Source of the DNA: an uncultured Eubacteriales bacterium
Lineage (GTDB): Bacteria > Bacillota > Clostridia > Christensenellales > Aristaeellaceae
Length of the DNA stretch: 35,250 nucleotides
NCBI GenBank assembly: GCA_900318145.1
Contig: ONJM01000023.1
Coordinates: forward strand, 1-35,250
Reading direction: 5' to 3'
In this document: one piece after another, positions 2,803 through 35,250 of the stretch
Layout of the letters: every line of letters begins with the position of its first letter
Position numbering within the stretch: the first letter of the stretch is position 1
Program-made: the position numbers and the translations under genes
Notes under the pieces: model-generated
Databases searched by the model: none
What the model was told of the DNA's origin: nothing
The model's input: the letters and a program-made list of their open reading frames with translations, nothing else

Positions 2803-2807
2803 AGTCT

Positions 2808-5153: not shown

Positions 5154-5165
5154 TTTCCTTCTCCT

Positions 5166-9047: not shown

Positions 9048-9119
9048 ATCACATGCCCCCTTGATAACGCTGTGTTTATTCTGATCAGTTCATGACAGAA
9101 AATATACAGATCCGCCGGA

Positions 9120-10001: not shown

Positions 10002-10053
10002 GTTTTTTTCATCCTCCGTTTTCAGGGCTGAAAGGGGGGACTCCGGAACAGGT

Positions 10054-12219: not shown

Positions 12220-12247
12220 GGCTGCCCTCCTGTGTGATCCATTTCTG

Positions 12248-15229: not shown

Positions 15230-15252
15230 GTCCGTTACACTCCCTTGTTCCG

Positions 15253-17757: not shown

Positions 17758-17770
17758 TGCTGTATCCTCC

Positions 17771-19936: not shown

Positions 19937-19949
19937 TGAAAAAGCCTCC

Positions 19950-22349
19950 TTACTTGATTTCACCCAGGGCATAGAACGCTCGGGTTCTGCCGGCCAGCCA
20001 AGCGTTTTCCGTTACACGGAAGGAATCCTTGAGGCGGATATCCTCAGAGGAAGACCCGATCTGCACTTCAAATTCGCCCTTTTCGATCTTCCAGCGCATG
20101 TCTTCGTCCAGGAAAGCCATCTGGCTTGGCTGCAAAGTGAAGATTACTTCTTTTTCCTCCCCGGGCTGTAATGCCGCCCGGATGAAGCCCTGCATCTCCT
20201 TCTGAGGTCTGGTCATGGACGCGTTCACGTCTTTCACATACAGCTGCACAATTTCTGTCCCGGCACAGGTGCCGGCGTTCTTCACATTCAATGAAATCCT
20301 CACTGCTTCAAAGGGGTTGATCTCCTTCCTGTCCAGTTTCAGGCCGCTGTATTCAAAACTGGTGTAGCTCAGTCCGTAGCCGAAGCAGTAACGGGGACGG
20401 TGGGGACAGTCCACGTAATCCGTAAAGCCGATACTGGGAGCCTGGGTCCACATGGAGCCGTTGGGATGGTTATAATACACCGGAATCTGTCCCGCGCACC
20501 GGGCAGTGGACAGTGGCATTTTGCCGGAGGGATTCCATTTGCCCAGCAGCGTGTCGGCAACGGCCTCCGCTGTATAAACAGCAGGATTCCAGCATTCCAG
20601 GATGGCGTCCAGACATTCATCCGCCGCGTCGCTGGAGATGGGGCGTCCGTCAAAGTGAATACCGACCAGGGGTTTACCCAGCCTCTTCGCTTCCCGGATG
20701 AAAGCGTCCTGGCAGGCGGGCAGATTGATGTCGGTGCCATCCACACCCTCGCCCATGGTGGCGACAGAGCCGGAGCCGTTCTTGCCGCCCAGGGTCAGGA
20801 GGATCACGTCGGCCTGTCCGGCGATTTCCAGCGCTTCGGGGAACAGGCTTTCATCCGCGCCCGCCTTGTGATAACCGGGTGCATACAGGATACGGGTATC
20901 CGGCAGGGCATCCGTCAGGACCTGCACCAGATTTTTGCAATGAGGCTTTAATTTGGTCAGCACGCCGGCAAATTCTTCGTTTTCGTCATCCTCCACATTG
21001 GTCCCTGGCACAAAGCGCACTTCATTTTTTTCGCCGTTGCCATTCACACCGGCCATGGAATTGCGGGCAGCGTGCTTGGCTTCCACCATGGACAGGTGGG
21101 TGTAGCCGCCGAAATAATACCGGGCGTTGGCAGCCGCGGGGCCGATGACGGCGATGGTCTTCTCCCGGCCGGTCAGGGGCAGCGCGCCGTCGTTTTTCAG
21201 CAGCACCAAGGCTTCCCGGGCGGACCGGGCGGCAAGCTGTTCGTCCTCCGCGTGATGCACGGTCTTGTCCAGTTCTTCACCCTCCAGGGCAAAGGGATGC
21301 TCGAACAGGCCCATGCGGAATTTGGCTTCCAGCACACGGATCACCGCGCTGTCCAGCAGGGCCATGTCCGCTTCGCCGGATGCGAATTTCTGTTTCAGTT
21401 CATCCGCGTAAGCCTTGGGCATCGGCAGTTCCACATCCAGTCCCGCGGCCAGGCAGCGAAGGCCCGCGTCGCCCATGGTTTCGCCGATCCCCTGATATTC
21501 ATGGGCGTTGCTGGCTCCGCCGTAGTCGGACACGGTGACGCCCTCAAAGCCCATCTCGTCCCGCAGAATACCGTTCAGGTAATGTCTGGAGGCGTGGATG
21601 GGCAGGCCGTTCACGGATCCGTAGCAGGGCATTACGCCCTTGAGGCCGGCTTCGGTGATGGCCGCCTGAAAGGGTTTGCCGTAGACTTCCAGCAGCAGCC
21701 GGTCTCCCGCGTCCACATGGGCGCCATGGATCGCGCCGGCGGAATTGTGGAAGCCGAAAAAGTGCTTGGCGGCAGCGTCCGGGGTGCGGCCCGCGGTTTC
21801 GGTCTCCTGGATGCCGTGGGTGTAGGCTGCTCCCATGGCCGCGGCCAGGGTTGGATCTTCGCCGTAGGGTTCGCACTGGCGGCCCATGCGGGAATCCCGG
21901 GAAATATCCAGCACAGGCGCTAAAACCTGGGTAATACCGACAGCTGCTTCCTGGCGGGACACGGTTTCACCGATCCTCCGTTCCAGCTCAGGGTCAAAGG
22001 AGGAGCCCCGGGCCACGCCGGAGGGGAATGTGGTGGTATCCTGCATCAGCGGCCCGCACAGGCCCTCCATATGGAACACGGCGGGAATATGCAGGCGGCT
22101 GCTTTCCATTACGATGGACTGCAGCTGCCGCTGCCAGGCGGCGGTTTCCTCCAGGCTGTCGCAGGAGCGGAACTCCAGGGAACTGATCTGGCCGATGCCG
22201 TGCTTGAAAAAGGCTGCCATGCGGTCCTCCGCGCCTTTGATGGCGAATACGCCTACCAGCTGCGCCATCTTTTCGTCCAGGTTCATTTCCCTGAGCAGCA
22301 GTTCCGCCCGTTCCCGGGAAGTCAGAGACGCGTTCATGTATTCCTTCAT
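19950..22349 (-). CDS. GH3 beta-glycosidase, intracellular (second GH3)
   Basis: The 799-residue protein is a three-domain GH3. The barrel includes PAVFHMEGLCGPLMQDTTTFP, QVLAPVLDISRDSRMGRQ, AAAKHFFGF and the nucleophile Asp275 in GVTVSDYGGA. The alpha/beta sandwich starts at EALVLLKNDGALPL. The fibronectin-III-like domain follows YCFGYGLSYTSFEYS. The HFFGF segment carries the conserved Lys-His pair. The subgroup resembles xylan beta-1,4-xylosidase/beta-glucosidase annotations; substrate is not resolvable. No signal peptide is seen. AAAAGGAGG precedes the ATG. It is 14 bp from the DUF5060-type gene and 13 bp from the GH78 gene, so it belongs to the same transcript. Confidence 0.9.
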   Translation of the reverse strand: MKEYMNASLTSRERAELLLREMNLDEKMAQLVGVFAIKGAEDRMAAFFKHGIGQISSLEFRSCDSLEETAAWQRQLQSIVMESSRLHIPAVFHMEGLCGPLMQDTTTFPSGVARGSSFDPELERRIGETVSRQEAAVGITQVLAPVLDISRDSRMGRQCEPYGEDPTLAAAMGAAYTHGIQETETAGRTPDAAAKHFFGFHNSAGAIHGAHVDAGDRLLLEVYGKPFQAAITEAGLKGVMPCYGSVNGLPIHASRHYLNGILRDEMGFEGVTVSDYGGASNAHEYQGIGETMGDAGLRCLAAGLDVELPMPKAYADELKQKFASGEADMALLDSAVIRVLEAKFRMGLFEHPFALEGEELDKTVHHAEDEQLAARSAREALVLLKNDGALPLTGREKTIAVIGPAAANARYYFGGYTHLSMVEAKHAARNSMAGVNGNGEKNEVRFVPGTNVEDDENEEFAGVLTKLKPHCKNLVQVLTDALPDTRILYAPGYHKAGADESLFPEALEIAGQADVILLTLGGKNGSGSVATMGEGVDGTDINLPACQDAFIREAKRLGKPLVGIHFDGRPISSDAADECLDAILECWNPAVYTAEAVADTLLGKWNPSGKMPLSTARCAGQIPVYYNHPNGSMWTQAPSIGFTDYVDCPHRPRYCFGYGLSYTSFEYSGLKLDRKEINPFEAVRISLNVKNAGTCAGTEIVQLYVKDVNASMTRPQKEMQGFIRAALQPGEEKEVIFTLQPSQMAFLDEDMRWKIEKGEFEVQIGSSSEDIRLKDSFRVTENAWLAGRTRAFYALGEIK

Positions 22350-22363
22350 GATCGTTCCTCCTT

Positions 22364-23908
22364 TTAAATGCGCATGATCAGCAGCGCCAGGTTGTCCCGC
22401 CCGGGCAGGGTCAGTTTGGTTTCGCCGCTGATGCTTTCAGCGATCACTTCCCGGGTCATGTTCCACACGTCGATCAACTCGGCTTTGTACGCCTTATCCT
22501 TGGGCAACTTCACCGTCTGTTCGCCGTAGCATTGCAAATCGAAATAAGTCAGGTACGCTTCTTCGCCGCAATGACTTTCCCAGGCGTGCTCCCCGCCCAG
22601 GTGGGCCGTGCGGTCCTGCTCGGGCATGCGGTGGATGCTGCGGGCAAACAGGGTAAAGAATTCCCTCATTTCTTCCGGAACGCTGGGCAGCGCCGCTTCA
22701 AATTCTTCCTTGTTCAGCCGCGCGATGGACCAGATGCCGCCCGCCTTGGGGGTCAGAGGTCCCGGCAGACTTTCCATGATCTGCCGCAGGAAGGCAATGC
22801 GCTTGGAGCTTTCGCCTTTGAGAACACCGCCCCGGGCCCACCAGACGATCTCGTCATCAGAAAGGAAAGTCTCTCCATGGGTGCAGTACGCGCCACTGGC
22901 ATAGCAGCGCCAGAAGCGGCGCACCATTTCCTGTCCGCTGATGCTGCCCCAGAAGTGGGGCAGATTGCCCTCATAGCAGCATTCGTCAATGATCACCGGT
23001 TTATTGTACTCCCGGATCCACCGGGGGATTTCGGACAGGCCCTTGGTTTGCAGACTGGCGTGGGTCACGTTCTTCCGCGTGGCATCCCAGAAGCACATGC
23101 AGTTGTGATTGGACAGAAGATGATGGAAGGGGTCGTTGGCGGCGACAAATTCTTCGATCTCTTCCCAATCGGCCAGGCTCTTGTCGGCCATGTTCAAATC
23201 GTATTCGTTGGCCAGGCTCCACCAGATGTTGGGAAAGGCGCTCAGGCGACGCAGCAGATAATCCAGATACATCAGGTTGTCCTGCTGCGGCAGCTTGGAA
23301 AACCCCCACCGGTCATAGGGATGGAACAGGATCAGATCGATCTGGATGCCCATTTCCGCAATTTGCTTCAATATCTTTTCAAACCGATGCCAGAAGGCGA
23401 TACAGGGCCGATTCACATCCCAGGAGCCCTCAGCTTTCTTTTCAAAAGCGTACAAGGGCGGCTCGTTGTGGTTGTAATCGTAATGCTTGGGGAATACGCA
23501 CATGCGCACCTTGTTAAACGGCGCGGCTTCAAGGCTTTTTAGGGTCTGCTCTACCAAGTCGTCGTCCTGATGGGCTAGGGCGTACACCGTGGTGCCGAAG
23601 GGGATAAACAGCGAGCCGTCAGCATATTCAAAATGAGTATCCACAGCTTTTACCAACCCGTGAGAACCGTCCGCCGGTTCGCAGCTTTCCGTCCCCTCAG
23701 CGTTCACCACGCCTGTGACCTTCCAGCGCCATTCCCCGGCGATTTCCGGGAGGAAACGGATGACATACCGCCCGTCGCCATCATAAAAGCCCTTGACGGT
23801 TTTGGCGGTATCACCGCATGCAAATTCCGCTGTCAGGTCGGTCTGCGCCCATCGGTCCGTCAGCGTTTCTCCGGAAAAAACCAGCTCGAACATTTCGTAT
23901 TGTTTCAT
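22364..23908 (-). CDS. DUF5060/DUF4038/DUF5605-type (beta/alpha)8 glycoside hydrolase
   Basis: The 514-residue protein starts with a short beta-sandwich (DUF5060-like, residues 1-70: YEMFELVFSG, GRYVIRFLPEIAGEWRW). A (beta/alpha)8 barrel follows (FIPFGTTVYAL, FNKVRMCVFPKHYDYN, LILFHPYDRWGF, WWSLANEYDL, KPVIIDECCYEG). Glu235 in ANEYD and Glu309 in IDECCYEG sit where clan GH-A acid/base and nucleophile occur. A small C-terminal beta domain resembles DUF5605. Relatives with a DUF4038 barrel include GH140 apiosidases, but most proteins of this exact layout are uncharacterised. No signal peptide is seen. It is the first hydrolase after the attenuator hairpin, with AAAGGGAGG at 7 bp. The catalytic assignment is an inference from motif placement. 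Confidence 0.78.
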   Translation of the reverse strand: MKQYEMFELVFSGETLTDRWAQTDLTAEFACGDTAKTVKGFYDGDGRYVIRFLPEIAGEWRWKVTGVVNAEGTESCEPADGSHGLVKAVDTHFEYADGSLFIPFGTTVYALAHQDDDLVEQTLKSLEAAPFNKVRMCVFPKHYDYNHNEPPLYAFEKKAEGSWDVNRPCIAFWHRFEKILKQIAEMGIQIDLILFHPYDRWGFSKLPQQDNLMYLDYLLRRLSAFPNIWWSLANEYDLNMADKSLADWEEIEEFVAANDPFHHLLSNHNCMCFWDATRKNVTHASLQTKGLSEIPRWIREYNKPVIIDECCYEGNLPHFWGSISGQEMVRRFWRCYASGAYCTHGETFLSDDEIVWWARGGVLKGESSKRIAFLRQIMESLPGPLTPKAGGIWSIARLNKEEFEAALPSVPEEMREFFTLFARSIHRMPEQDRTAHLGGEHAWESHCGEEAYLTYFDLQCYGEQTVKLPKDKAYKAELIDVWNMTREVIAESISGETKLTLPGRDNLALLIMRI

Positions 23909-24000: not shown

Positions 24001-25065
24001 TTATTCGGTCACGAATTTCAGGGTCTGTTCGATGGCGCCGAAGGGAGCCACCTCGGCAACTTTGTAGTTGAGCACCATGTCGGCGGCGTAGCCTTCGGTA
24101 GTCATGTCGCCGGCGTTCTCAAAGTGGAGCACGAAGGAGTAAGTGGTCATATCGATCTCATAAGTGCCCTTGTCCACATCCATCTGGTTGCCCATGAAGT
24201 CGGCGTACAGCCGCACGGTGTTATCGCTGTACAGGTTGCAGATAAAGTCGGCGTTCGTTCCGTCCATGCCGGGCACGGGGATCTCGCCCTTCAGAGCGTA
24301 AGCCACTTCCACGGGCTTCACTTCCACCAGGGTCACTTCGTCACCGTCGGTGGAAACGTAGGTATAAGTACCGTCTTCATTCTTTGTCACAGTGGCGCCG
24401 GCATCTCCCTCAGAGCTGGGAGTCAGTACGATCTCGGTCTGGTCGGCGTTCATGGCGTAGGTGCCTTCCACAAACATGACTACCAGGTCGTCATACTTGC
24501 CGTTGACTTTCAGGTCCAGGGTGGCGGTGTCATCCTCGGGATTGATCAGGGACAGGAAAGAGACAGCGGGCTCGCCGGCATACTGGGCGGCAAACTTGCT
24601 GTTCTCAGGATCGGTATCCAGGTTCATGGCGCAGTTGCCGCCGCCGATGCCGGTAATATTCGCCATATCGTTGTAGATATGCTCAGCATCCATGGCGCAC
24701 CGGTCCAGTTCATTGCCGGCAAAATCGTAGAATACGACGGTATAGGGGGCGGTGCCCTCGGTCAGGGTACCCGCTTCACTGGCGGCGCGGTCCATCGCCA
24801 CATTGTAGGCACGTTCTTCAGCCAGCACCTCGTAGGTACCGTCGAAGCAGATCTGATCCATGCACATGCCGGCGTGGAAAACCTTGCCTAGTCCGGGAAT
24901 CTCATCATAGAAATGGAAGTAGTAATTCATGAACATGGTTCCGACGTCATAGCCGTAGGAATAGTAGGTACCGGCCAGGTTCGGCACATCCTCCGCCGCG
25001 GCGAAAGATACAGCGGACAGGCACAGCATCAAGCAGAGCAGCAGAGCAGCGATCTTTTTCATCAT
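24001..25065 (-). CDS. Secreted protein of unknown function with repeated beta-rich modules
   Basis: I do not recognise this 354-residue protein. It has a clear signal peptide (MMKKIAALLLCLMLCLSAVSFAAAED, cleavage after the Ala run near 24) and no convincing lipobox or wall-sorting motif, so it is exported and probably released or loosely bound. The mature part is acidic and beta-rich. It contains about three modules that end in G-T-Y followed by hydrophobic strands (FDGTYEVLAEE, VEGTYAMNADQTEIVL, DKGTYEIDMTTYSFVLHF), like lipocalin/calycin-type repeats in Firmicutes secreted proteins. AAGGAG precedes the ATG pair. It is the first gene after a GTCGGATT-repeat regulatory site shared with the importer, so a role in binding or capturing the same glycan is a reasonable guess, with no direct evidence. 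Confidence 0.75.
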   Translation of the reverse strand: MMKKIAALLLCLMLCLSAVSFAAAEDVPNLAGTYYSYGYDVGTMFMNYYFHFYDEIPGLGKVFHAGMCMDQICFDGTYEVLAEERAYNVAMDRAASEAGTLTEGTAPYTVVFYDFAGNELDRCAMDAEHIYNDMANITGIGGGNCAMNLDTDPENSKFAAQYAGEPAVSFLSLINPEDDTATLDLKVNGKYDDLVVMFVEGTYAMNADQTEIVLTPSSEGDAGATVTKNEDGTYTYVSTDGDEVTLVEVKPVEVAYALKGEIPVPGMDGTNADFICNLYSDNTVRLYADFMGNQMDVDKGTYEIDMTTYSFVLHFENAGDMTTEGYAADMVLNYKVAEVAPFGAIEQTLKFVTE

Positions 25066-25131: not shown

Positions 25132-25160
25132 ATTATGCCATTTCCCGCCCGGAAATTCTG
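25132..25160 (-). promoter_or_regulatory. Promoter of the secreted-protein/hydrolase operon
   Basis: The minus strand has CATAAT (25132-25137) 17 bp from a poor -35, CAGAAT (25155-25160). The weak -35 and the direct repeats ending just upstream suggest an activator-dependent promoter. The predicted start is near 25125, giving a leader of about 60 nt before the ATG. Confidence 0.65.
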
Positions 25161-25163
25161 TAT

Positions 25164-25194
25164 GAAATCCGACATAAAATCCCGTAAATCCGAC
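25164..25194 (-). promoter_or_regulatory. Tandem direct-repeat operator, copy A (probable response-regulator site)
   Basis: Two copies of GTCGGATTT read on the minus strand (25165-25173 and 25186-25194), 21 bp apart. Several spacer bases (AC, G, ATTTT) are shared with the site at 31326-31356. Position 25164 extends the second copy as GTCGGATTTC. The site begins 6 bp after the response-regulator stop codon and ends 26 bp before the -10. Two-turn spacing and direct orientation fit an AraC-type dimer. The regulator assignment is an inference from adjacency. Confidence 0.72.
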
Positions 25195-25199
25195 ATCTT

Positions 25200-25970
25200 T
25201 CATTTCTGCAGCTGTTTCTGGTATTCCCGGGGTGTCATGCCGTAGAATTTCTTGAACTGCTCTGTAAAATAGGAATAGTTTCCGAAACCCACCTTGTTCG
25301 CCACCATGGAGATTGACATCTCCTGCCGGCGCATCAGCTCCCCGGCCAGGCGGATCCGTCTCTCCTGCATATATTCAGACACCGATATGCCGAACTTCTT
25401 TTTGAACAGCCGGGTCAGGTGGTCTGCGCTGATAAAGCACACCGACGCCAGTTCCCGTACGGACAGCTCGTCCGTCAGGTGGCTGTCGATATACTGCACG
25501 GCCGTGTCCAGGGCGTTGCCGGAATCGCTGCGGGTTTCCTTTGCCAGGGAATCGATGTACTGCTCTCCGTAGTGCTGGATCTGCTCCTTCCTGCGCCGCT
25601 GGGCGGATCGTTCCTCCGCCTGCATCAGGATCTCCGTCAGCTTCTGGTAGCGGACCGGCTTGAGTACGTATTCCATGCAGTTCAGCCGTACAGCCGTCCT
25701 GGCGTAGTCAAACTCGTCATGGCATGTCAGGATAATGCATTCCGTATTCGGGCTGTGCTCATTGGCATATTCGATCAGCTGAAGTCCGCTCTCCCCCGGC
25801 ATTTCAATATCGCTGACCAGGATATCCACAAAGGTGTTGCTGAAGATGCTCACCGCGTCCTGGTAGCTCCGGGCAGTCAGCACCTTGTCAAAATGAAGCT
25901 GATCCCAGCGGACCCCGTCCAGGATCCCCCGCACCGCCAGCTCTTCGTCGTCCACTATCAGGATCGTCAT
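25200..25970 (-). CDS. Two-component response regulator with AraC-type DNA-binding domain (YesN type)
   Basis: The 256-residue protein has a receiver domain (residues 1-120) with acidic pair Asp7/Asp8 (IVDDEE), phospho-acceptor Asp54 (SDIEMPGESG) and Lys near 104 (YVLKPV). A short linker follows, then a two-helix-turn-helix AraC domain (about 153-256): SVRELASVCFISADHLTRLF for the first and ISMVANKVGFGNYSYFTEQF for the second, ending FYGMTPREYQKQ. It would activate sugar-responsive promoters when phosphorylated by the upstream kinase. Its start is 4 bp from the kinase stop. The paired GTCGGATT repeats before the importer and secreted-protein genes are the obvious candidate targets. RBS and length are ordinary. 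Confidence 0.92.
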   Translation of the reverse strand: MTILIVDDEELAVRGILDGVRWDQLHFDKVLTARSYQDAVSIFSNTFVDILVSDIEMPGESGLQLIEYANEHSPNTECIILTCHDEFDYARTAVRLNCMEYVLKPVRYQKLTEILMQAEERSAQRRRKEQIQHYGEQYIDSLAKETRSDSGNALDTAVQYIDSHLTDELSVRELASVCFISADHLTRLFKKKFGISVSEYMQERRIRLAGELMRRQEMSISMVANKVGFGNYSYFTEQFKKFYGMTPREYQKQLQK

Positions 25971-25974
25971 GCCG

Positions 25975-27408
25975 TCACCCCTGTTTCAATGTCTGTTCCG
26001 CGGTAAGCGAGAAAGGAATGATCAGGTACACCTGTGTTCCTCCGCCGACCGCGCTGGTAAAGTGGATGTCCCCCCGGTTCCCGTAGAACAGTTCCACCCG
26101 GCGCAGACAGTTATAGATACCGATGTGTTTCTGTCCCGCCTCGTCGATGTAGGGTTCCTTCTTCTGAAGCTTCTCCAGCACCTCCGGCCGGATGCCGCTG
26201 CCCGTATCCATGATTGCGATATGCAGCCTGTTTCCCCCGTCTTCGTCCTCTTCCCGGTGTACGGATACCACAATCTCGATAGGTGCCTTCGGATCCAGGG
26301 CGTACTTCGTGGCATTTTCCACAAAGTTTTCAATCAGCAGCGGCGGAATCATGGCGGACATGCAGTCCTCTTCCGCCTGGTATACGTAGGAGAACCGGTC
26401 CGGAAAGCGGATGCGCTGAATGCGGATAAAGTTTTCCACAAACTCCAGCTCCTGCCGTACCGTCACCATCTGCTGCCCCCTGCGCAGCACGTAGCGGAAA
26501 TAATCCGCAAGGCACAGGGTATAATCCTGGATGGTGGCGTAATCCTTCGATTCCGCCAGGGCGTAGATCATGTTGTAGGAGTTCAGCAGCATATGCGGAT
26601 TCACCTGCAGGCGCAGGTTGTCCATCTCCGATTCCAGCAGCTTCACATCCTTCTCGTAACCTGCCTGCACTTCCGCCGCCATGCCGTTAAAATGTTCGAA
26701 CAGCCGGTGAAAGTCATCGCTCACGACCAGGGACTGCTGCGGAATCCGGTAGGACCGGTCCTTCTGAAATTCGGACAGGGCATGGTTCATGGTCTCCATG
26801 GGGTCCAGCACATCCTTCTTCAGCCTGCTGAAAAGGATCGGGCTGATCCCGATGGTCAGCAGGGCGATCCCCAGGGCCGCCCAGAACCAGGCGGGAACAT
26901 TCCGCAGGGAAAAATCGTAGGAAAAGGTGACCAGCACCCGGAAGGGCTGTCCCTCCTTTTCCCACAGGAAGCTGTTCCGCTCCTGCTTCAGGGAAGCAAA
27001 AGACCGTTCTTCCTCCCGCCATGTCCCGTCCTGAAGGATCAGAAACGCCTGTTCTCCGTCCTTTGAAACATACACGCTGCTGCCGTTATCCGCGCGGACG
27101 TCAGGCTGGGGCGCGTTCCAGTGCAGCAGCGTCAGGCTTGGCGCCAGGCCGGCGGGGAAATCCGTCATCACGTCGATATCGCCCAGCTCCTGGCGCAGCG
27201 CCACCTGGTCCAGGTAAAAGCTGAAAGCATTCTGGCTCATGCTGTCAACCGCTTCGCGGGACTTGCAGATGGAAACCACCGAAAGTGTCAGGCAGACCAG
27301 GCTGACCGGGAGGACCAGCGCGACGATCATCGTCATCAGCCGCGGACGGAGCTGACGGAACACGGGCCGGATCCAGACCCACTTATATAAGGCTGAATGT
27401 TCCTTCAT
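25975..27408 (-). CDS. Sensor histidine kinase, YesM type
   Basis: The 477-residue membrane kinase has one transmembrane helix at about 24-46 and a second at 172-193. The extracytoplasmic region between them, about 120 residues, is short and lacks an obvious large Cache domain. A HAMP-like linker follows (KDVLDPMETMNHAL). The His-kinase domain has the phospho-acceptor His272 in LRLQVNPHMLLNS, where the usual form is INPHFLYNT. The ATPase domain has IPPLLIENFVENATKYA (N box), MDTGSGI (G1) and HIGIYNCLRRVELFYG. It should sense an external signal, possibly through the solute-binding protein, and phosphorylate the regulator encoded next. GGGAGG precedes the ATG. The signal is not deducible from sequence. 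Confidence 0.92.
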   Translation of the reverse strand: MKEHSALYKWVWIRPVFRQLRPRLMTMIVALVLPVSLVCLTLSVVSICKSREAVDSMSQNAFSFYLDQVALRQELGDIDVMTDFPAGLAPSLTLLHWNAPQPDVRADNGSSVYVSKDGEQAFLILQDGTWREEERSFASLKQERNSFLWEKEGQPFRVLVTFSYDFSLRNVPAWFWAALGIALLTIGISPILFSRLKKDVLDPMETMNHALSEFQKDRSYRIPQQSLVVSDDFHRLFEHFNGMAAEVQAGYEKDVKLLESEMDNLRLQVNPHMLLNSYNMIYALAESKDYATIQDYTLCLADYFRYVLRRGQQMVTVRQELEFVENFIRIQRIRFPDRFSYVYQAEEDCMSAMIPPLLIENFVENATKYALDPKAPIEIVVSVHREEDEDGGNRLHIAIMDTGSGIRPEVLEKLQKKEPYIDEAGQKHIGIYNCLRRVELFYGNRGDIHFTSAVGGGTQVYLIIPFSLTAEQTLKQG

Positions 27409-27466
27409 GCAGGCATCCTCCCGTGCGCTGAAAATATCCTGTTGATACAGTGAGCCGTCATTTTTG

Positions 27467-27496
27467 ATTATACCCGGATTTTCCGTTTTCTGTAAA
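27467..27496 (-). promoter_or_regulatory. Promoter of the kinase/regulator pair
   Basis: A consensus TATAAT (27467-27472) lies 18 bp from TTTACA (27491-27496). The -35 starts immediately after the terminator of the importer operon. The near-consensus hexamers suggest steady basal expression without activator help, unlike the two promoters with GTCGGATT repeats. The leader is about 50 nt. Confidence 0.75.
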
Positions 27497-27526
27497 GAAA
27501 AAAAAGCAGCCCGCGAACGGACTGCT
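27497..27526 (-). terminator. Hairpin terminator after the importer operon
   Basis: On the minus strand AGCAGTCCG pairs with CGGGCTGCT across a TTCG tetraloop, giving a 9-bp stem with one G-T pair, followed by eight T. It lies 15 bp after the second permease's stop. It cleanly separates importer expression from the kinase/regulator pair. Confidence 0.9.
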
Positions 27527-27540
27527 TTCGTGAAAAGCCT

Positions 27541-28452
27541 TTAGCCCTTGACGCCGCCCTGGATCACGCCTTTCTCCATCTTGTCCTGGAAGAAGGGGAA
27601 GGCGATAATGATGGGGGCGATAGCGGCGATAATCACCGCGAACTGGATCAGGTAACGGCTGTAGTTGGGGTTGGAGGAATTCAGGAAGTCTGCGTTTTCG
27701 CTTGTGATCTGGCGGATGACCAGCTGCAGCGGCCACAGGACCTTTTTGTTGGGCACGTAGATGCTGGCCGGCAGCCAGGAATTCCACTGGCCGATGGTCA
27801 GGTTCAGAATGATTACGCTGCCCATATTCATCGCCTGGGGCAGGGTAATTTCGAACAGGGTGGAAAGGTGGCCTGCCCCGTCGATGTGGCTGGCTTCATA
27901 CATTTCCTTGGGAATGGAATTAAAGGCGTTCATCATCATGATGCAGTACATGCTGTTGGTGCAGCCCGGAATGACCAGCGCCCAGGGGGTGCCGACCCAT
28001 CCCAGGGCACGGATCACCATGTAGGTTGGCACCATACCGCCGCCGAAGAGCATCGTGATCATCAGCGCCATGGTCACCGGCTTCTTCAGTTTTGTATCCC
28101 GGCTCAGGGCGTAACCCGTTACGGCGGAGAGCAGGAAACCGATGGTGACGAAGGCGACGGTATAAATGACAGTGTTGATATAGCCGTCCACAATACTGGA
28201 ATTCTGGAAAATCAGGGAATAGCCGTCCAGGGTAAATCCTCCTACAGGCCACAGTACCAGTCCCACATGGGCCAGCAGTGATTTACCGTCCGAGAACGAG
28301 GACATGAGCACGTGCCACATGGGGATCACGCTGCACAGTGCCACCAGTGCCACGCAGGCGTACACGACAACGTCCACGACCCTGTCCGCCACGGACTTGG
28401 TCTCGACCATGTTGTTTTCCCATTCTTGCTTTTTCCGCTGCTTTCTTGCCAT
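27541..28452 (-). CDS. ABC sugar-transporter permease, LplC/YtcP type
   Basis: The 303-residue inner-membrane subunit has about six hydrophobic segments, beginning VVDVVVYACVALVALCSVIP. The cytoplasmic EAA-type loop MYEASHIDGAGHLSTLFEITLP contacts the ATPase. Early WHVLMSSFSD and the C-terminal FPFFQDKMEKGVIQGGVKG are typical of LplC-like permeases that import oligosaccharides in Firmicutes. It pairs with the LplB-type gene 14 bp upstream. It is the last gene before the terminator. No ATP-binding subunit is encoded in the window, so a shared MsmX-like ATPase is presumably used. RBS is AGAGGAGGGG. Confidence 0.92.
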   Translation of the reverse strand: MARKQRKKQEWENNMVETKSVADRVVDVVVYACVALVALCSVIPMWHVLMSSFSDGKSLLAHVGLVLWPVGGFTLDGYSLIFQNSSIVDGYINTVIYTVAFVTIGFLLSAVTGYALSRDTKLKKPVTMALMITMLFGGGMVPTYMVIRALGWVGTPWALVIPGCTNSMYCIMMMNAFNSIPKEMYEASHIDGAGHLSTLFEITLPQAMNMGSVIILNLTIGQWNSWLPASIYVPNKKVLWPLQLVIRQITSENADFLNSSNPNYSRYLIQFAVIIAAIAPIIIAFPFFQDKMEKGVIQGGVKG

Positions 28453-28466
28453 GGTGACCCCTCCTC

Positions 28467-29423
28467 TCAGAACAGGCTGCTTCCGGCGGCCTTACGCGAC
28501 AGGGCGTTGGAACCCACCAGAAGAATCGTGGAAACGACGGACTGGAACAGACCGGAAGCCGCGGACAGGGAATAGTTGCTGTTGCCCGCGCCGAAGGCCT
28601 GGCGGTAGGTATAGGTGTACACGGTATCGGATACGCTGTAGGTGCTGGGCATGTACAGCAGCAGAATGTTGTCATAGCCCGCCGCCAGCGCCGTACCGAT
28701 GTTGATCACGAACATCATCAGGATCATGGGCAGGATGGAGGGCAGCGTAATCCTGAACATCCGCTGCAGGCGTGTCGCTCCGTCCAGTGCCGCGGCTTCA
28801 TGCAGATCGCCGCTGACCTGGGAAATGGCTGCCACATACATGATGGATCCCCAGCCGATACCCTGCCAGATGCCCATCAGCAGGTAGATGATCCAGAAGA
28901 CGGGAGGTTTGTCATTGGCAAACCAGTTCTGGTTCTCCGCCCCGAATACGTTGGTCAGGAACAGGGACAGGGGGCCGTCTTTTGACAGGAACTGGGTAAA
29001 CAGGGAGCAGACGATGACCGCTGCAACGAAGTTGGGCATGTAGGACATGGTCTGGGCCGTGCGCTTGAATTTCTTGGAGTTGATCAGGCTCAGCATCAGC
29101 GCGAAGATGATCGGGGCCACAAAACCGATCGTGGCGCGCATCACGCCGATTACCACCGTATTGCGGATGGCCTGCAGAAAGTCCTCTCCGCTGAACAGAT
29201 CGATGAAATGCTTCAGTCCGACCCATGGACTGCGGAAGTAGCCGTCGATCACATTGTAATCCTCGAAGGCCATCACGATACCGAACATGGGCAGGTAATG
29301 CAGCACCACTTCATACACGATGATCGGCACGAACAGCAGGTACACCACCCAGTCGCGTTTCAGCTCCGTCTTCCAGCTCCTGCGGGAGGAAGCGGCCAGA
29401 TCGTAAGAGTTTTTCTTTGCCAT
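28467..29423 (-). CDS. ABC sugar-transporter permease, LplB/YteP type
   Basis: The 318-residue membrane protein has the LplB-type start (LKRDWVVYLLFVPIIVYEVVLHYLPMFGIVMAFEDYN), about six helices and an EAA loop (LHEAAALDGATRLQRMFRITLP). The middle region YMPNFVAAVIVCSLFTQFLS and the late LLLYMPSTYSVSDTVYTYTYR are characteristic of oligosaccharide importers related to LplB and YteP, which take up rhamnogalacturonan-type or other complex oligosaccharides in bacilli. It lies between the solute-binding protein (19 bp) and the second permease. The transported substrate cannot be read from it. AGGAGGTG precedes the ATG. Confidence 0.92.
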   Translation of the reverse strand: MAKKNSYDLAASSRRSWKTELKRDWVVYLLFVPIIVYEVVLHYLPMFGIVMAFEDYNVIDGYFRSPWVGLKHFIDLFSGEDFLQAIRNTVVIGVMRATIGFVAPIIFALMLSLINSKKFKRTAQTMSYMPNFVAAVIVCSLFTQFLSKDGPLSLFLTNVFGAENQNWFANDKPPVFWIIYLLMGIWQGIGWGSIMYVAAISQVSGDLHEAAALDGATRLQRMFRITLPSILPMILMMFVINIGTALAAGYDNILLLYMPSTYSVSDTVYTYTYRQAFGAGNSNYSLSAASGLFQSVVSTILLVGSNALSRKAAGSSLF

Positions 29424-29442
29424 ATGTCACACCTCCTGTCGC

Positions 29443-31227
29443 TTATCGGAAGGGATACTCGTCAACATACTTCTGCATAAGTTCGGAAACCTGATCCACC
29501 CTGTACTTCTTCAGCACTGTACACCACTTGTCCCAGTCCTTGTCAAAGTTGTTTTTGCCGGTGATGAAATCCGCACAGTTTTTCGTCATATATTCCAGTG
29601 CTTTGGAATGGATATCCCCCATGTACTTGCTGTCTTCCTGGGTCATGGCGTTTGTGGTGCGGCTGCCCTGGAAGAAGCCTGTGTTGGGATACAGCGACCA
29701 CGTATCGAGGGAAGCCTGGTACGTCGCGGCATATCCCAGGTCCACCGTCCGGACCAGTTCCAGGCCGCAGCACTTGTTGAAGCCCACGGCAGTGTTCAGC
29801 TGGCCGCTGTCGTGCACCAGCACATCGCTCTTGCGGTAACGTCCGTCCACGCCGATATAATAGGCGCCGTCAGCGAGTCCGTTGTCAGCATAGAAGGTAT
29901 TCTCCGTGAATTCCTCCACCTGTTCCTTGTTCAGCCCCAGCGTCTTGATCAGAGCGCCTTCGGTGGTAAAGAAGTAGTCCAGGTAGCTGCACAGGGCCGC
30001 CAGGTCCTTATCCTTGGCCTTGGGAGTGATCAGGATTCCCCCTTTGGTCAGGCCGCTGCCCATCACGCAGTCCGGCGGTACATTCCGGCAGCTTTCCGGG
30101 CCGTACATATCGTTGATCGGATAGGGCGTGCCCTGGACATAGATGCCTTCGGTAAATCTGCCGTCGTGCATATCAAGCCGTCCGCCCAGCTCGCTCTGCT
30201 GCCCGTTCCACATGCCGATCATGCCCTGGCGCACGGACGTGGAGTCGATCTGGTAGAAAGCGTCGGAAGTGCGCTGATTGAAATCATGATCCAGCCAGCC
30301 CTTCTCATACCAGGCGTGCATGCACTGCAGATAGGTTTTGAAAGGTTCCTCATTTCCGCCGAAATGCACCTTGCTGTCCGCGTCCTGGTACCACACGTTC
30401 ACGCCGCCGCCGAAGCAGCTCAGCAGGCCGCCGGACCAGGTGAATCCGGGATAATACAGGCTCATGCAGTATTTATCCGTAATGCCGAGATCCGCCTGTG
30501 CCCGGGTGAAGATTTCGAACATCCATTCCCAGTCGGAGATGTACTTCGGATCCGTACCGCCGGAAGGGAAAACCACGTCGTCCGTCCAGCTGTCCACGTC
30601 GTTCGGGTCGGTATAGCCGCCGGTGAACGCCGCTCCGGTAACAGGGTTGGTTCCGTATTTAACGATCCAGTCCCGGCGGTACATAAAGCCCTGGAACACC
30701 GTGCCGTAGCCGTCTGAAACCGTGGCGATGTTGTAGTAATGCTCCTTGCCGTCCGCATCGACATGAACCGTATTGATATAGACCTCGTGGTTGGAATGTA
30801 CCAGCGCTTTGTAGTTCGGCATATAAGCTTCCACGTAATCGGTCAGTTCGATCGCGTAGCCGTTCTCCACCATGAGGGCAGGCGGATCGCAGATTACGGC
30901 GTCGATGATGTCCGGCAGGTCACCGGAAGCAATCATCGTGCTGTAGTTATCCGCTTCAGACCCGGGCGGAGGCTGCAGGAAATTGAGTGCGATACCCTTT
31001 TCTTCCGGACCCCAGCCTTTTCTCAGGGTATATTGGATTGCCGGGTTTTCGGCGTAGTTTCCGTAGTATTCCGAGGACGTACCGGAATAGATCCACCATT
31101 CAAAGGTGGTTTCCGGGGATGCACTCCGGCCGCTTGTGCCGCCGATATTGCCGTAGTACACCTGCATGCCGACCAGCAGCACCACCACAGCTACCATCAG
31201 CGCGATCCATTTTGCACGAATGGACAT
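29443..31227 (-). CDS. ABC transporter solute-binding protein (LplA/YtcQ-like family)
   Basis: The 594-residue protein is a large extracytoplasmic solute-binding protein of the family paired with LplB/LplC permeases. It begins with a hydrophobic anchor (WIALMVAVVVLLVGMQVYY, about 7-25) that has no lipobox Cys. It is therefore either N-terminally anchored or cleaved, rather than a classical lipoprotein. Two-lobed binding-protein features include MIASGDLPDIIDAV, YMPNYKALV, FMYRRDWIVKYG and NVPPDCVMGSGLTKGGILITPKAKDKDLAALCSYLDYFF. Its operon leader carries the GTCGGATT direct repeats and a promoter, so it should be induced with the hydrolase operon. AAAGGAG lies 12 bp before the ATG. Ligand unknown; context suggests a rhamnose-containing oligosaccharide. 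Confidence 0.88.
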   Translation of the reverse strand: MSIRAKWIALMVAVVVLLVGMQVYYGNIGGTSGRSASPETTFEWWIYSGTSSEYYGNYAENPAIQYTLRKGWGPEEKGIALNFLQPPPGSEADNYSTMIASGDLPDIIDAVICDPPALMVENGYAIELTDYVEAYMPNYKALVHSNHEVYINTVHVDADGKEHYYNIATVSDGYGTVFQGFMYRRDWIVKYGTNPVTGAAFTGGYTDPNDVDSWTDDVVFPSGGTDPKYISDWEWMFEIFTRAQADLGITDKYCMSLYYPGFTWSGGLLSCFGGGVNVWYQDADSKVHFGGNEEPFKTYLQCMHAWYEKGWLDHDFNQRTSDAFYQIDSTSVRQGMIGMWNGQQSELGGRLDMHDGRFTEGIYVQGTPYPINDMYGPESCRNVPPDCVMGSGLTKGGILITPKAKDKDLAALCSYLDYFFTTEGALIKTLGLNKEQVEEFTENTFYADNGLADGAYYIGVDGRYRKSDVLVHDSGQLNTAVGFNKCCGLELVRTVDLGYAATYQASLDTWSLYPNTGFFQGSRTTNAMTQEDSKYMGDIHSKALEYMTKNCADFITGKNNFDKDWDKWCTVLKKYRVDQVSELMQKYVDEYPFR

Positions 31228-31293
31228 CTTTGTTTCCGTCTCCTTTCCGAATCCTTCAGGTTATTGAACTCATAAATATCCTGCCGCATGACC

Positions 31294-31322
31294 ATCATAT
31301 CCGATCGGACAATATTTTTCTT
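31294..31322 (-). promoter_or_regulatory. Promoter of the importer operon
   Basis: TATGAT (31294-31299) lies 17 bp from a poor -35, AAGAAA (31317-31322). As at 25132-25160, a good -10 with a weak -35 and repeats just upstream suggests activator dependence. The spacer contains a perfect 10-bp palindrome, TCCGATCGGA (31300-31309), that could bind a second factor. Transcription would start near 31287. Confidence 0.65.
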
Positions 31323-31325
31323 TGC

Positions 31326-31356
31326 GAAATCCGACCAAAAATACGGTGAATCCGAC
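31326..31356 (-). promoter_or_regulatory. Tandem direct-repeat operator, copy B (probable response-regulator site)
   Basis: Minus-strand GTCGGATTT (31327-31335) and GTCGGATTC (31348-31356) are 21 bp apart and match the site at 25164-25194 in repeat sequence, period, several spacer bases and the 26-bp distance to the -10. The upstream copy is also part of an inverted repeat, TCCGA-N5-TCGGA, at 31351-31365. The response regulator encoded at 25200-25970 is the best candidate binder, by location and domain type. Confidence 0.72.
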
Positions 31357-31389: not shown

Positions 31390-33510
31390 TTATGAAACGA
31401 CAATCCGTGCCCGGTCCAGGTTCAGCACCTGGGTGAATGCCCGGGACGGGTCTCCTTCCCGGTTGGTGGCAATTCGCACGGTGGCAAAGTAAGTGCCGGG
31501 CTTGTCATAGCAGCCCACAGTCTCCGCCCGGGCAGTATGGACAGCTCCCTTCACGCCTTTTTCAAAGGTCAGCCTGCCATCCCACATATCGTCTCCCAGC
31601 ATAAGCCGGGCAACACCGTTGACGTCCGTATCCTTGACGGTCAATTCTTTTTCCTCCTGGGCAAAGAGGATTTCCGTCACGTCGCCCGCACCCTCCGGCA
31701 CTTCCACATCAACGGTGAAGCGCACACATTCGCCTGCCTTCACATAGGCGCATTTTTCGCCGTTGGCCTTCAGGGTGGGGATCGCCTGGATCCCGAAGCG
31801 CCTGCTCACATCCGGCTCCGCGTGGATCTGTCCGTCTTCACCCAGGGAATATGCGGTACGGTTCAGGGGCGCAATGCCCTTTTCCACCCAAGCGGAGAGG
31901 TCGATCAGCGCCTGGCGCAGAGCGCCTACATAGTTGACCACCATATAGTTGCCGATGGCGTTGATATCGCCGTGCATGCAGCGCTCCATGAAATAGGTGC
32001 GGTGATCTTTATCGGTGCCCTTGGTTTCTATGATCTTGTTCCGCCACCAATCGGCGCACCAGGGGCAGGTGCTTTCATCCATCAGAGCCTGGATATTGAT
32101 CACCTTGCCCTGAATATCGCCGTCCTGCGGCAGGCCGACGCCTGTAAACGGCACCAGGAAGGGGGCACGCTGGGGCGTTTTGGGCGTGCCGTCCGGATTG
32201 CGGAACTGATCCCAGGCATGGAAGGACAGGTCTGCCGGCACCTGATGGCGATAATAGCTCTGGGCGGCAATATAATCGGAATTGTCCAGCAGGATCTCAT
32301 CACCGGGCTTCACTTTCCGCAGGGTTTCATCCAGGTCGCTCATGCCATAGCATTCGCCGATGGTCACGATGCCGCCTTCGCTGTCGTTAAAGCGCATCAT
32401 CTTGTCCATGAGCAGGGCGGCTCCCTGGGCATCCCCGGTCTGGAAAACCATCGAAAGGCCTTCCAGATACAGGTTGTCGCCCAGCGGCAGCGTTTCCAAT
32501 TCCAGATAAGCCCCGTCGCCCTTGACCGCCTGCTTTTTATAGGAATCGTCCACGCCGTTCTGGCCGTCCTCGGCATCCCGTTTCTCCGTTTTCTCAGTCA
32601 GGTGCACGGACTTTACTTTGGTACGGAAATAGATGCGATCCTTGGAAGCGCTGCTTTGGGGATCGGCCCCGGCATAGCCCGGCTTGGTCCAAAAATCAGT
32701 GAAATAGGTGGGGTCAAGGCCTCTCATGGCAGGCAGCAGCACCGGCAGCGCACCGGGATCAATGACACCCTTGGCTTCCATGTACCAGGCCAGGGGCGGG
32801 AAGCCCATCCTCGTCAACTCCCGCAGCATATCGGCTTCGTCCTTGTTCAGCTCCTGATAAGGGTCGCCGCTGCCGCCCGCATCCAGAGCGTCCAGGATTT
32901 TGGAAAAAGCGTTGCGCAGCACCCGCTGGCCCTGCACGTGCATGGTGATGGTGTTGGGCAGGCTGACGGGAGAGCCGATCACGAAGGGCGCGGCCCCATC
33001 CCAAGCGGAAGTGTTTTCGATGCAGGCCATGGATTTATAGCCGCCGCCGCTGCCGCCGTACACGTAGCCGTAGGGCCGCCGATCCGTGCCATAAATCTCC
33101 ATGGCCTTTATCCGGGAGAATTCCGCCGCCGCCGCGGAGGACTGCCAGGTCAGCTTATCGTCCCGTTTTCCGCCGAACTGAGAATGGGAACCCATGTTGG
33201 TTTCCACATAGTAAGCGCCGCATTTGAGCGCGAAGCCGACGCGGTCTTCCAGGCCGGTGTGGCCCAGGGAAGCCACTTCCTCATCCGGCCCGGGGAAGGG
33301 AGACAGATACTGCTGGAACCGGCCTTCATACCGATCGGCAGGCGGGAAACAGAAAGAGAATTTCACGTCCGTACCCTCAAAATACCCATGCAGATAGCGG
33401 AAGGGAATGGTTTCGCCGCCCGGCAGATGTCGCTCGCGCCATTCGTCCTGGTCGATCACCGGATGCTGAAAACGGGCGTCCTGTTTGGGGTCATAGATCG
33501 TCTTTGCCAT
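31390..33510 (-). CDS. Large tannase-like alpha/beta hydrolase, function unknown
   Basis: The 706-residue protein is not a standard named family to me. It has an alpha/beta-hydrolase core with nucleophile elbow GYVYGGSGGGYKSM (Ser154). A long insertion follows, rich in charged residues (about 200-360). Later come NIQALMDESTCPWCADWW and CMHGDINAIGNYMVVNYVGAL, where His may complete the triad, then ALIDLSAWVEKGIAP, which resembles the C-terminal part of tannase/feruloyl-esterase proteins. From about residue 575 a beta-sandwich (VRFTVDVEVPEGAGD ... YFATVRIATNREGDPSRAF) ends the protein. No signal peptide is present, so it would be cytoplasmic. AGGAGGAA lies 8 bp before the ATG. Its place between a rhamnosidase and the importer suggests it hydrolyses an ester on the imported glycan, but this is an inference. 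Confidence 0.7.
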   Translation of the reverse strand: MAKTIYDPKQDARFQHPVIDQDEWRERHLPGGETIPFRYLHGYFEGTDVKFSFCFPPADRYEGRFQQYLSPFPGPDEEVASLGHTGLEDRVGFALKCGAYYVETNMGSHSQFGGKRDDKLTWQSSAAAAEFSRIKAMEIYGTDRRPYGYVYGGSGGGYKSMACIENTSAWDGAAPFVIGSPVSLPNTITMHVQGQRVLRNAFSKILDALDAGGSGDPYQELNKDEADMLRELTRMGFPPLAWYMEAKGVIDPGALPVLLPAMRGLDPTYFTDFWTKPGYAGADPQSSASKDRIYFRTKVKSVHLTEKTEKRDAEDGQNGVDDSYKKQAVKGDGAYLELETLPLGDNLYLEGLSMVFQTGDAQGAALLMDKMMRFNDSEGGIVTIGECYGMSDLDETLRKVKPGDEILLDNSDYIAAQSYYRHQVPADLSFHAWDQFRNPDGTPKTPQRAPFLVPFTGVGLPQDGDIQGKVINIQALMDESTCPWCADWWRNKIIETKGTDKDHRTYFMERCMHGDINAIGNYMVVNYVGALRQALIDLSAWVEKGIAPLNRTAYSLGEDGQIHAEPDVSRRFGIQAIPTLKANGEKCAYVKAGECVRFTVDVEVPEGAGDVTEILFAQEEKELTVKDTDVNGVARLMLGDDMWDGRLTFEKGVKGAVHTARAETVGCYDKPGTYFATVRIATNREGDPSRAFTQVLNLDRARIVVS

Positions 33511-33558
33511 GTTGATTCCTCCTCAAACGATGTTTTTTCGCTTTGTCGGTTTGCGCTG

Positions 33559-35250
33559 TTACTGAAACACTTCATAGCTGTACGTTCCTGCTTCCACCTG
33601 ATGCATTCCGCTGCCTGGCAGGATGATTTCAGCAGGAATCGGGACGGTGAATTCAAAATGGAGCCGATGATCGGCATAGCGCCATCCGCTGCGGATCTCG
33701 CCCACAGGAGACAGCCATTTCGCCTCCGCATGCCCCAGGGAGGGATGCGGATAGGGACGAAGGGTCAGGCTGCCCGCTTCCAGCCGGATGCCGCACACGC
33801 CGCTCATCAGCCAGCCGCAGATGGCCCCGTAAGCATAATGATTGAGGGATTCGTGTACCGTACCGTCGGGATGCACGCCGTCCCAGGTTTCCCAGATCGT
33901 GGTAGCGCCTTTTTTGACAGCGTAAAGCCAGCTGGGGCATTCCTGCTGCAAAAGCAGCCGATAGGCGGTATCTATATGCCCGTTTTCCGCCAGAACCCGG
34001 CAAAGATCGGGCGTTGATAAAAAGCCCGTATTCAAGTGATACCCGTTTTGGATCACCAGTGCGTTCAGGGCGTCGGCCGCCTGTTGGTTTTCCTCGCCGT
34101 CCAGCAGACCAAAGGCGATGGGCCGCACATATTCGCACTGGCGGTCAGAGGTGATTTGGCCGTCCTTCAGGCAGCAAAAGCGATACGCCTTTTTCGCGTT
34201 TTCGGCAATGAAAGCAAAATGCGAAGCATCATGGGAATGACCCAGGATTCCCGCGATGCGGGACAGCAGGGAGGCGGAGCGGTAATAATACGCCGTCGCC
34301 ACCTCCGGCACGCCTTCCATCGCGTTTTTGCGCATGATCTCCGCGTTGTCCGCCCCCGGCTCGCACCACTCGCCAAAGTGGATGCCCGTATCCACCAGAA
34401 AATCCTTCCAGGGGTTGTTTTCGTTCCGGGGACGGGTCTGGCGGGCACGCTCCTGGCAGAAAGCCAGCCAGCGGGTCATCATGTCATAGTTTTCTTCCAG
34501 GATCGTTTTGTCGCCCAAAGCCTGGTAAAGCGCCCAGGGCACCAGGATGCAGGCGTCGCCCCAGCCGGCGGAGCCCTGGAGCATCATGGCAATTTGATCC
34601 CGCGGATCATTGACGGGGGCGATATTCTGCACGACCCCCTTTTCGTCCTGCGCCAGGCGGCATTCCTCCAGCCACTTTCGCAGAACAGGCGCGCAGTCCA
34701 TCAGCATCACGGCGGTGGGCGCAAACAGCGCCGCGTCCCCCGTCCAGCCCGCGCGCTCCCGGGTGGGACAATCGGTGGGAATATCGCAGAAGTTGGAGCG
34801 CATGCTCCACAAGCAGTTGTGGAACAGCTGATTCACATCCGCGCTGCCGCAGGTAAAGAAGCCCACCTGCGGCATATAGGAATACACGGCGATAGCGGTA
34901 AACCGGGCATCCGTCAGATCAGCGTCGGTCTCCACTTTGGCATATCTGAAGCCCATGATTGTAAAGCTTGGCTTGTATTCATTCAGGCCGTCCTTGCAGA
35001 TATAATCGATCCGCTGAGGCACGCCGCCATTCTGGCTGCGCCAGGTGGGGTTGTAATTGGACTGTGTGAAATTTCCGTTTTCATCCAGGGTCTCGCCATG
35101 CCAGATCGTGATTTTCTGTCCAGCCTTTGCCGTTACACACAGCTCCGTATATCCCGCCAGGTTCTGTCCAAAGTCGATGACCGTTTCCCCATTTGGTGTT
35201 TTGATGAGCTTGCCGGGAAAGCGCTCCTGCTCCAGAACAGGAACACCTGT
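33559..35250 (-). CDS. GH78 alpha-L-rhamnosidase, 5' end cut by window edge
   Basis: The frame stays open to base 35250, so the start lies outside. The internal GTG at 35022 is not the start, because the residues upstream (VIDFGQNLAGYTEL, ITIWHGETLDENGNF) are clear GH78 concanavalin-like domain. The catalytic barrel has DIPTDCPTRERAGWTGDAALF, GWGDACILVPWALYQALGD, GATTIWETWDGVHPDG and SLNHYAYGA, with the acidic residues of GH78 in place. About 563 residues are visible. It should release alpha-L-rhamnose. Compared with the enzyme at 17771-19936 the key stretch differs (TRERAG versus QRDERLG), so the two may prefer different linkages. It ends 48 bp before the tannase-like gene and probably shares its transcript. 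Confidence 0.92.
   Translation of the reverse strand, partial: TGVPVLEQERFPGKLIKTPNGETVIDFGQNLAGYTELCVTAKAGQKITIWHGETLDENGNFTQSNYNPTWRSQNGGVPQRIDYICKDGLNEYKPSFTIMGFRYAKVETDADLTDARFTAIAVYSYMPQVGFFTCGSADVNQLFHNCLWSMRSNFCDIPTDCPTRERAGWTGDAALFAPTAVMLMDCAPVLRKWLEECRLAQDEKGVVQNIAPVNDPRDQIAMMLQGSAGWGDACILVPWALYQALGDKTILEENYDMMTRWLAFCQERARQTRPRNENNPWKDFLVDTGIHFGEWCEPGADNAEIMRKNAMEGVPEVATAYYYRSASLLSRIAGILGHSHDASHFAFIAENAKKAYRFCCLKDGQITSDRQCEYVRPIAFGLLDGEENQQAADALNALVIQNGYHLNTGFLSTPDLCRVLAENGHIDTAYRLLLQQECPSWLYAVKKGATTIWETWDGVHPDGTVHESLNHYAYGAICGWLMSGVCGIRLEAGSLTLRPYPHPSLGHAEAKWLSPVGEIRSGWRYADHRLHFEFTVPIPAEIILPGSGMHQVEAGTYSYEVFQ

Follow-up and report, generated by a model that had tools for sequence, protein, structure and literature searches.

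This study analysed a 35,250-nucleotide stretch of DNA (the window) from an uncultured Eubacteriales bacterium of the family Aristaeellaceae and found two matching tandem operators, one preceding an operon for an LplABC-type importer with its sensor kinase and response regulator, the other preceding an operon of hydrolases. The operators share half-sites, a 21-bp period and a distance to the -10 hexamer; all three are conserved at the operon heads of related clusters in eight genera, to which the operators are nearly restricted. Judged from sequence and setting, the sites are, with good confidence, direct half-sites arranged in tandem for a dimeric AraC-type response regulator, most likely the product of the gene at 25970-25200, which would co-activate the operons of the cluster.

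Tandem operators and linked promoters

In each operator the octamer GTCGGATT is repeated after 13 bases (Table 1). The tandem GTCGGATT-N13-GTCGGATT has exactly two copies with 0 mismatches in the window, both on the minus strand, in agreement with the original prediction of matched repeats with a 21-bp period at both sites. With up to 3 mismatches allowed, 100 dinucleotide shuffles gave a mean of 0.30 matches, and a single shuffle held 2. Among all octamers of at least 3 different letters, scanned at periods of 12-40 on the same strand at places more than 100 bp apart, GTCGGATT at period 21 (with its complement) was the sole class with an exact tandem at two places in the window, and 20 windows simulated by a first-order Markov model gave 0 in each; the earlier claim that such shared geometry is unlikely by chance was thereby upheld. 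The -10 that had been placed 26 bp from the end of the originally proposed interval corresponds to a hexamer 28 bp after the proximal octamer. The two promoters had also been called unlinked, which is corrected here: both belong to one co-directional cluster, with 6.2 kb between them, and the AraC-type response regulator said to be encoded between them is indeed present, with matches to Response_reg (73.1 bits), HTH_AraC (81.7 bits) and HTH_18 (79.7 bits).

The window is the entire contig C60 of a 3.24 Mb genome in 63 contigs (88% complete), and its two sites are the only 0-mismatch copies in a whole-genome scan. Contig C53 carries, back to back, the sole copy with 1 mismatch (C53:1505+) and one of the five with 2 mismatches (C53:1451-), placed between divergent genes for YesL (DUF624) and a MATE transporter, the latter followed by GH3, GH1 and rhamnosidase genes; here too a -10-like hexamer lies 28 bp past the proximal octamer. 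The other 2-mismatch matches are on C16, C19, C20 and C61. In G020, the closest relative (97% identity of the solute-binding protein), a single contig carries two operators between MATE-GH3 genes on one side and YesL, rhamnosidase and 706-residue protein genes on the other, then an operator with the importer, kinase and regulator genes, and then an operator with the hydrolase operon headed by a secreted protein (SEC). The contiguity of these genes in G020 makes it very likely that assembly has split one cluster into C53 and C60, so that its promoters are linked. The small regulon first proposed, an importer plus a degradation operon, is accordingly enlarged: a complete cluster has four operator-promoters (importer, kinase and regulator; SEC and hydrolases; MATE, GH3 and GH1; YesL and rhamnosidase), and some genomes add a fifth.

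Conservation and near restriction to operon heads

Of 300 family genomes, 20, among them that of the window, have an ortholog of the regulator with at least 70% identity; they span eight genera. Stretches of up to 320 bp upstream of cluster genes were scanned in 24 genomes, two of them represented by named contigs, for the best pair of RTCGGAWW octamers at periods of 17-25. The scan dropped tblastn matches below 60% identity (50% for YesL and the histidine kinase) or starting past query residue 26, upstream stretches shorter than 150 bases, and both rhamnosidase queries. All 82 operon heads carry the tandem with at most 2 mismatches and 21 as the best period (MATE 20/20, YesL 19/19, solute-binding protein 23/23, SEC 20/20), so that relatives which keep the genes keep the operator. 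The -10 lies 28 bp after the proximal octamer in 75 heads and 29 bp in 7, ties having been resolved towards 28. The same kind of pair precedes 1 of 181 internal genes, with the best -10 there at offset 22. Upstream of the 706-residue protein gene it was found in 2 of 22 cases, both in genomes without YesL, where this gene is the operon head; the operator thus tracks the head, preceding the next gene where YesL has been lost (G013, G015).

Since the head sequences are related, the 82 are not independent events, and a fairer measure is a nonredundant subset (less than 85% identity) of 42 from 64 operators. The set of 64 was listed by hand and leaves aside a second copy of the G013 cluster (L047), two YesL sites with more core mismatches and contigs fetched later; all but the G013 copy were open to the head scan. 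Of the 42, 35 have the -10 at offset 28 and 7 have it at offset 29; other offsets between 10 and 43 have at most 4, offset 5 (within the element at the -35 position) has 9, and 2000 letter shuffles of the subset reached at most 8 at any single offset. Each half-site consists of a strong RTCGGAWW box and a weaker A/T-rich second element, repeated at 21 bp. In the proximal half-site the second element holds, at the -35 position, a nearly invariant AG (A36 in 63 and G37 in 62 of 64 operators), and TTGACA is matched there at 0-4 of 6 positions, with at most 2 in 45 of 64, bearing out the poor -35 of the original prediction. The two half-sites of an operator can also change in parallel: the importer operator has GTCGGAAA twice in G017, G043 and G255, and one operator in G009 has ATCGGAAA twice.

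These alignments bear on the idea that the similarity reflects a promoter segment duplicated across the operons, with no continuing function. The four operator classes could share one ancestral promoter; yet there is little information in the flanks or in most of the stretch from the AAAG element to the -10, in contrast to the constant cores, period and -10 distance. Preservation of these features only is not expected under drift, and such a passive origin is regarded as very improbable.

The strict tandem of two RTCGGATT octamers has 35 matches in 24 of the 300 family genomes, of which 29 are in the cluster or its contig fragments. The remaining 6 lie inside stop-free frames of 238-627 codons and have TATAAT matches of at most 2 of 6 at offsets 28 or 29; as long frames of this kind are frequent in these genomes, the lack of a -10 weighs more as an argument. 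With a looser pattern, 64 of 71 matches in the 20 regulator-bearing genomes fall in the cluster or its fragments (two of the 7 others were inspected), and in 45 genomes of the genus, with at most 1 mismatch, 16 of 21 do. A reversed control pattern gave 0 matches in the own-genome, genus, strict 300-genome and 20-genome scans. The original prediction had proposed such scans of the genome and its relatives, with many unrelated copies counting against it; few copies were found elsewhere, and the strict ones lack a -10.

Several results weigh against the proposed reading. A pair with at most 2 mismatches at some period of 17-25 precedes 10 of the 181 internal genes, once at period 21, and 8 of 22 stretches before the regulator gene hold a period-21 pair with 3 mismatches, the -10 offsets being scattered. 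Five of the 21 matches in the genus scan are outside the cluster, and four of these five come from genomes that lack the regulator; one of the four isomerase operons described below (G043) has no operator before its isomerase gene. The stretches around more distant regulators, in Lachnoclostridium sp. An169 (L196, 51% identical) and L198 (39% identical), contain no such operator with promoter geometry. No clear equivalent appeared at the own genome's other importer/AraC-regulator loci in a scan that was not fully sensitive. Lastly, the regulator and the operators belong to a single co-inherited cluster, so that their co-occurrence alone cannot name the binder.

In the scan of those other loci, 18 stretches (the window, C53 and 16 around the other loci) were examined for octamers repeated at a period of 12-33 and followed after 26-30 bp by a -10-like hexamer; the open-reading-frame mask applied hid the known 25194 site, hence the incomplete sensitivity of the scan. 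Period 21 was the commonest, with 13 overlapping matches, 6 of which are known operators and 7 of which fall at three places (L082:7276-7279, L084:3269-3270 and window:34349). Tandem geometry as a general rule for such regulators was thus unsupported, and an operator of this kind was not found in the stretches scanned around still other distant regulators (L134-L136, 34-38% identity). What has been delimited is a well-defined regulon and not a rule for all regulators of this type.

Two near-tandems were recorded separately. At another importer locus of the own genome (L082:7276-7307, contig C61) the period-21 pair CATTTCAT/CATTTCGT lies 27-30 bp before CATAAT and might serve another regulator as its operator or have arisen by chance. 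Upstream of the 51% identical regulator (L196:3877-3906) a 21-bp-period pair, ACGGAAAA/GCGGAAAA, which resembles GTCGGAAA, ends just before the kinase start codon, where space for a -10 is lacking.

Other irregularities concern individual clusters. In G013 (L046:4770-4950) the importer promoter has a second, decayed operator start upstream, across a GC-rich stem-loop-like element, which looks like a duplication with a small inserted element. The G013 cluster is present twice (L046 and L047, contigs C1 and C8) with identical operators, probably because the assembly is duplicated or mixed. In G124, a break of about one codon divides each of the tblastn matches to the solute-binding protein and to MATE (L124:11434-13235 and L124:16438-17762), possibly reflecting in-frame stops or small gaps.

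Candidate binder and mode of action

The regulator and the kinase, whose gene adjoins that of the regulator directly upstream, are the only regulators among the scanned proteins (23 from the window and 5 from C53). The binder, its phosphorylation and an activating role are suggested by the domain make-up of the regulator, its position in the cluster and the behaviour of Cua-type systems. In the proposed mechanism, the kinase would sense an extracellular plant oligosaccharide or glycoside as inducer and phosphorylate the regulator, a dimer of which would occupy the two half-sites (RTCGGAWW with its weaker A/T-rich element), 21 bp apart and thus on the same helix face. The proximal half-site would extend as far as the -35 region, in which a conserved (A/C)AG replaces the consensus -35, and the regulator bound there may recruit RNA polymerase in a class-II-like activation. 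This would jointly switch on the four operons of the complete cluster and, in some relatives, a probable apiose operon. Since the kinase and regulator genes share an operator with the importer genes that precede them, the system is expected to show positive feedback, and such a self-reinforcing loop, if true, would give a switch-like response.

An unlikely variant keeps the operators and a common activator and assigns the binding to another factor encoded elsewhere, for example a one-component AraC protein, with the cluster regulator acting elsewhere. Such candidates exist, since 21 stretches of the genome (the regulator's own gene included) match the regulator, mostly in the AraC domain, and the variant is compatible with co-inheritance of the cluster. 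Against it stand the lack of other regulators among the scanned cluster proteins and the presence of the tandem in all 20 genomes with an ortholog of at least 70% identity; moreover, 64 of the 71 looser matches belong to the cluster or its fragments, which would leave a trans factor with hardly any targets beyond this one cluster.

The sign of regulation could also be reversed, with the unphosphorylated cluster regulator blocking RNA polymerase from the proximal half-site and phosphorylation releasing it. A half-site beside the -35 region would suit a repressor too, whereas the TTGACA matches, never above 4 of 6, are those expected of activator-dependent promoters. AraC/XylS proteins in sugar clusters are usually activators, which likewise counts against repression. 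CuaR of Ruminiclostridium cellulolyticum, a YesN/AraC-family protein, is reported to up-regulate its importer operon in the available portions of PMC9675976 and PMC10384115. Repression is therefore held to be improbable, and activation by the cluster regulator is retained.

Judged by position, the promoter layout is of the type used by dimeric AraC/XylS activators (AraC, XylS at Pm, MekR, MtlR): both have two direct half-sites of two elements each, the proximal one beside the -35. In the patterns printed in the accessible part of PMC4514859, the XylS (TGCA-N6-GGNTA-N6-) and MekR (CACC-N5-CTTCAA-N6-) repeats sum to a period of 21 bp, as in the operators here, whereas that of MtlR sums to 22. 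The half-site RTCGGAWW is unlike those printed there, and the AraC/XylS activators are one-component proteins, unlike the proposed binder, which as a response regulator has a receiver domain.

In gene content the closest parallel is with the Xua/Cua systems of R. cellulolyticum, which, in the excerpts available, combine a kinase, an AraC-family response regulator, an ABC importer without its own ATPase and cytosolic enzymes (PMC9675976, PMC10384115). The same make-up occurs here, with a solute-binding protein, two permeases, kinase, AraC-type regulator and hydrolases, and no ABC ATPase among the scanned proteins of the window and C53. The Xua/Cua enzymes differ from those of the cluster, hence the substrate does too. 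Those excerpts give no operator sequence: the words "promoter" and "direct repeat" are absent from PMC9675976, and "promoter", "repeat" and "EMSA" from PMC10384115. YesMN systems (in Bacillus, and pneumococcal TCS07 and TCS09) share the kinase/regulator domain make-up and the link to carbohydrate use, and YesL is a neighbour of YesMN in Bacillus. For pneumococcus, the part of PMC11034029 at hand gives CTWWWWWWAG as a candidate RR07 motif and, for YesN, no clear repeat, with a tentative conserved AATTC with C and T stretches that is perhaps part of a direct repeat. Among the papers listed in literature searches, none was recognised as describing this operator; of the 21,297 papers matched when the octamer was included, the 8 listed look unrelated.

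Gene content, substrate and significance

Table 1. Operators, promoter elements and genes in the window and in related stretches (positions refer to the window unless a contig or locus is named)
Feature	Position	Strand	Details
Importer-operon tandem operator	31328..31356	-	GTCGGATT (31356-31349), N13, GTCGGATT (31335-31328), period 21
AAAG element, importer operon	31320..31323	-	-35 position (operator positions 34-37)
-10 hexamer TATGAT, importer operon	31294..31299	-	28 bp past proximal octamer
Hydrolase-operon tandem operator	25166..25194	-	GTCGGATT (25194-25187), N13, GTCGGATT (25173-25166)
ACAG element, hydrolase operon	25158..25161	-	-35 position
-10 hexamer CATAAT, hydrolase operon	25132..25137	-	28 bp past proximal octamer
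YesL tandem operator, window's genome	C53:1479-1451	-
Solute-binding protein, LplABC-type importer, 594 residues	29443..31227	-	SBP_bac_1 below gathering cut-off (20.5 vs 26 bits); two permeases next; N-terminal hydrophobic segment by eye
Permease, LplB-like	28467..29423	-	BPD_transp_1
Permease, LplC/YtcP-like	27541..28452	-	BPD_transp_1
Sensor histidine kinase, YesM/LytS type	25975..27408	-	His_kinase PF06580 + HATPase_c
Response regulator, YesN type, AraC-type DNA-binding domain (proposed binder)	25200..25970	-	Response_reg + HTH_AraC
SEC, secreted protein, unassigned family, gene 1 of hydrolase operon	24001..25065	-	No Pfam/NCBIfam match at E 0.001; beta-rich low-confidence model
Apiosidase-like (PF13204), GH3, GH78 alpha-L-rhamnosidase, GH2, GH2+BD-FAE, GH3, BD-FAE esterase, DUF4432, FucI-like isomerase, FGGY kinase, class II aldolase	4317..23908	-	Co-directional genes
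706-residue protein without known family + GH78 rhamnosidase	31390..35022	-	G020 equivalents come after YesL
Isomerase/split-transketolase/FGGY-kinase operons	L167:11444-17400, L168:1-5667, L169:870-7001

The genes at 4317-23908 and SEC probably form one transcription unit, as gaps of less than 100 bp suggest; the four genes at 180-4230 belong to other families. The degradation and sugar enzymes after SEC have no signal peptide by eye, which looks like import followed by intracellular breakdown. The closest regulator orthologs with named records are from Clostridia metagenome assemblies, several labelled as sheep, goat, roe deer or water buffalo gut.

Four relatives have, in the stretches fetched, an operon that is probably an apiose pathway in gut Clostridia, and in three of them (G140, G246 and G255) the operator also precedes it; it encodes a FucI-like isomerase, two transketolase halves and an FGGY kinase. 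The G140 transketolase halves and kinase are 41%, 37% and 39% identical to aptA, aptB and aplK of E. coli SE15, which the accessible part of PMC13001218 gives as apiose genes. The isomerase, whose NCBIfam and Pfam matches are below the cut-off, is a putative step, and the score of the kinase comes close to that of glycerol kinases. In the window's own genome the looser-pattern scan found no fifth operator. Together with the apiosidase-like protein and the GH78 rhamnosidases, the probable apiose operon suggests that plant glycans or glycosides bearing apiose and rhamnose are the substrate.

Pairs of a kinase and an AraC-type regulator are often found next to LplABC importers in Clostridia, and few of their DNA targets seem to have been defined. 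By comparing genomes, the present analysis provides an operator resolved to the base, a constant promoter geometry and a delimited regulon across eight genera of a single family; with these defined, the binder, the sign and the inducer become testable with a few oligonucleotides and reporters. One signal also ties together the apiosidase-like enzyme, the rhamnosidases and the probable apiose pathway. Tentatively, in Clostridia of the rumen and gut, a single sensor-driven operator code might run the full route for plant glycans or phenolic glycosides that bear apiose and rhamnose: import of the intact compound, cytoplasmic removal of acyl groups and sugars (apiosidase-like, GH78, GH3, GH2 and GH1 enzymes, esterases), passage of apiose to the isomerase/kinase/split-transketolase operon under the same operator, and export of the aglycone through the co-regulated MATE pump.

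Two proteins of the cluster were considered individually. SEC, with a mean column identity of 81% over 13 sequences, could act in accessory binding or sensing. Its structure model (mean pLDDT 64.7) gave mostly meaningless PDB matches, the only coherent-looking ones being lipocalin-like small barrels (4gzv, 4u3q), so that SEC is possibly a lipocalin-like, beta-rich protein, at low confidence. The 706-residue protein (31390-33510), with a mean column identity of 88% over 11 sequences, has no match in Pfam or NCBIfam and shows a GGSGGGYKS hydrolase-like motif by eye; an AlphaFold model from the 11 sequences (mean pLDDT 43.8) was set aside as unusable. Additionally, G020 has an extra gene between SEC and the apiosidase-like gene (L042:15078-16250), GH43-like by eye and absent from the window's genome, and gaps of similar size occur at the same place in several other clusters.

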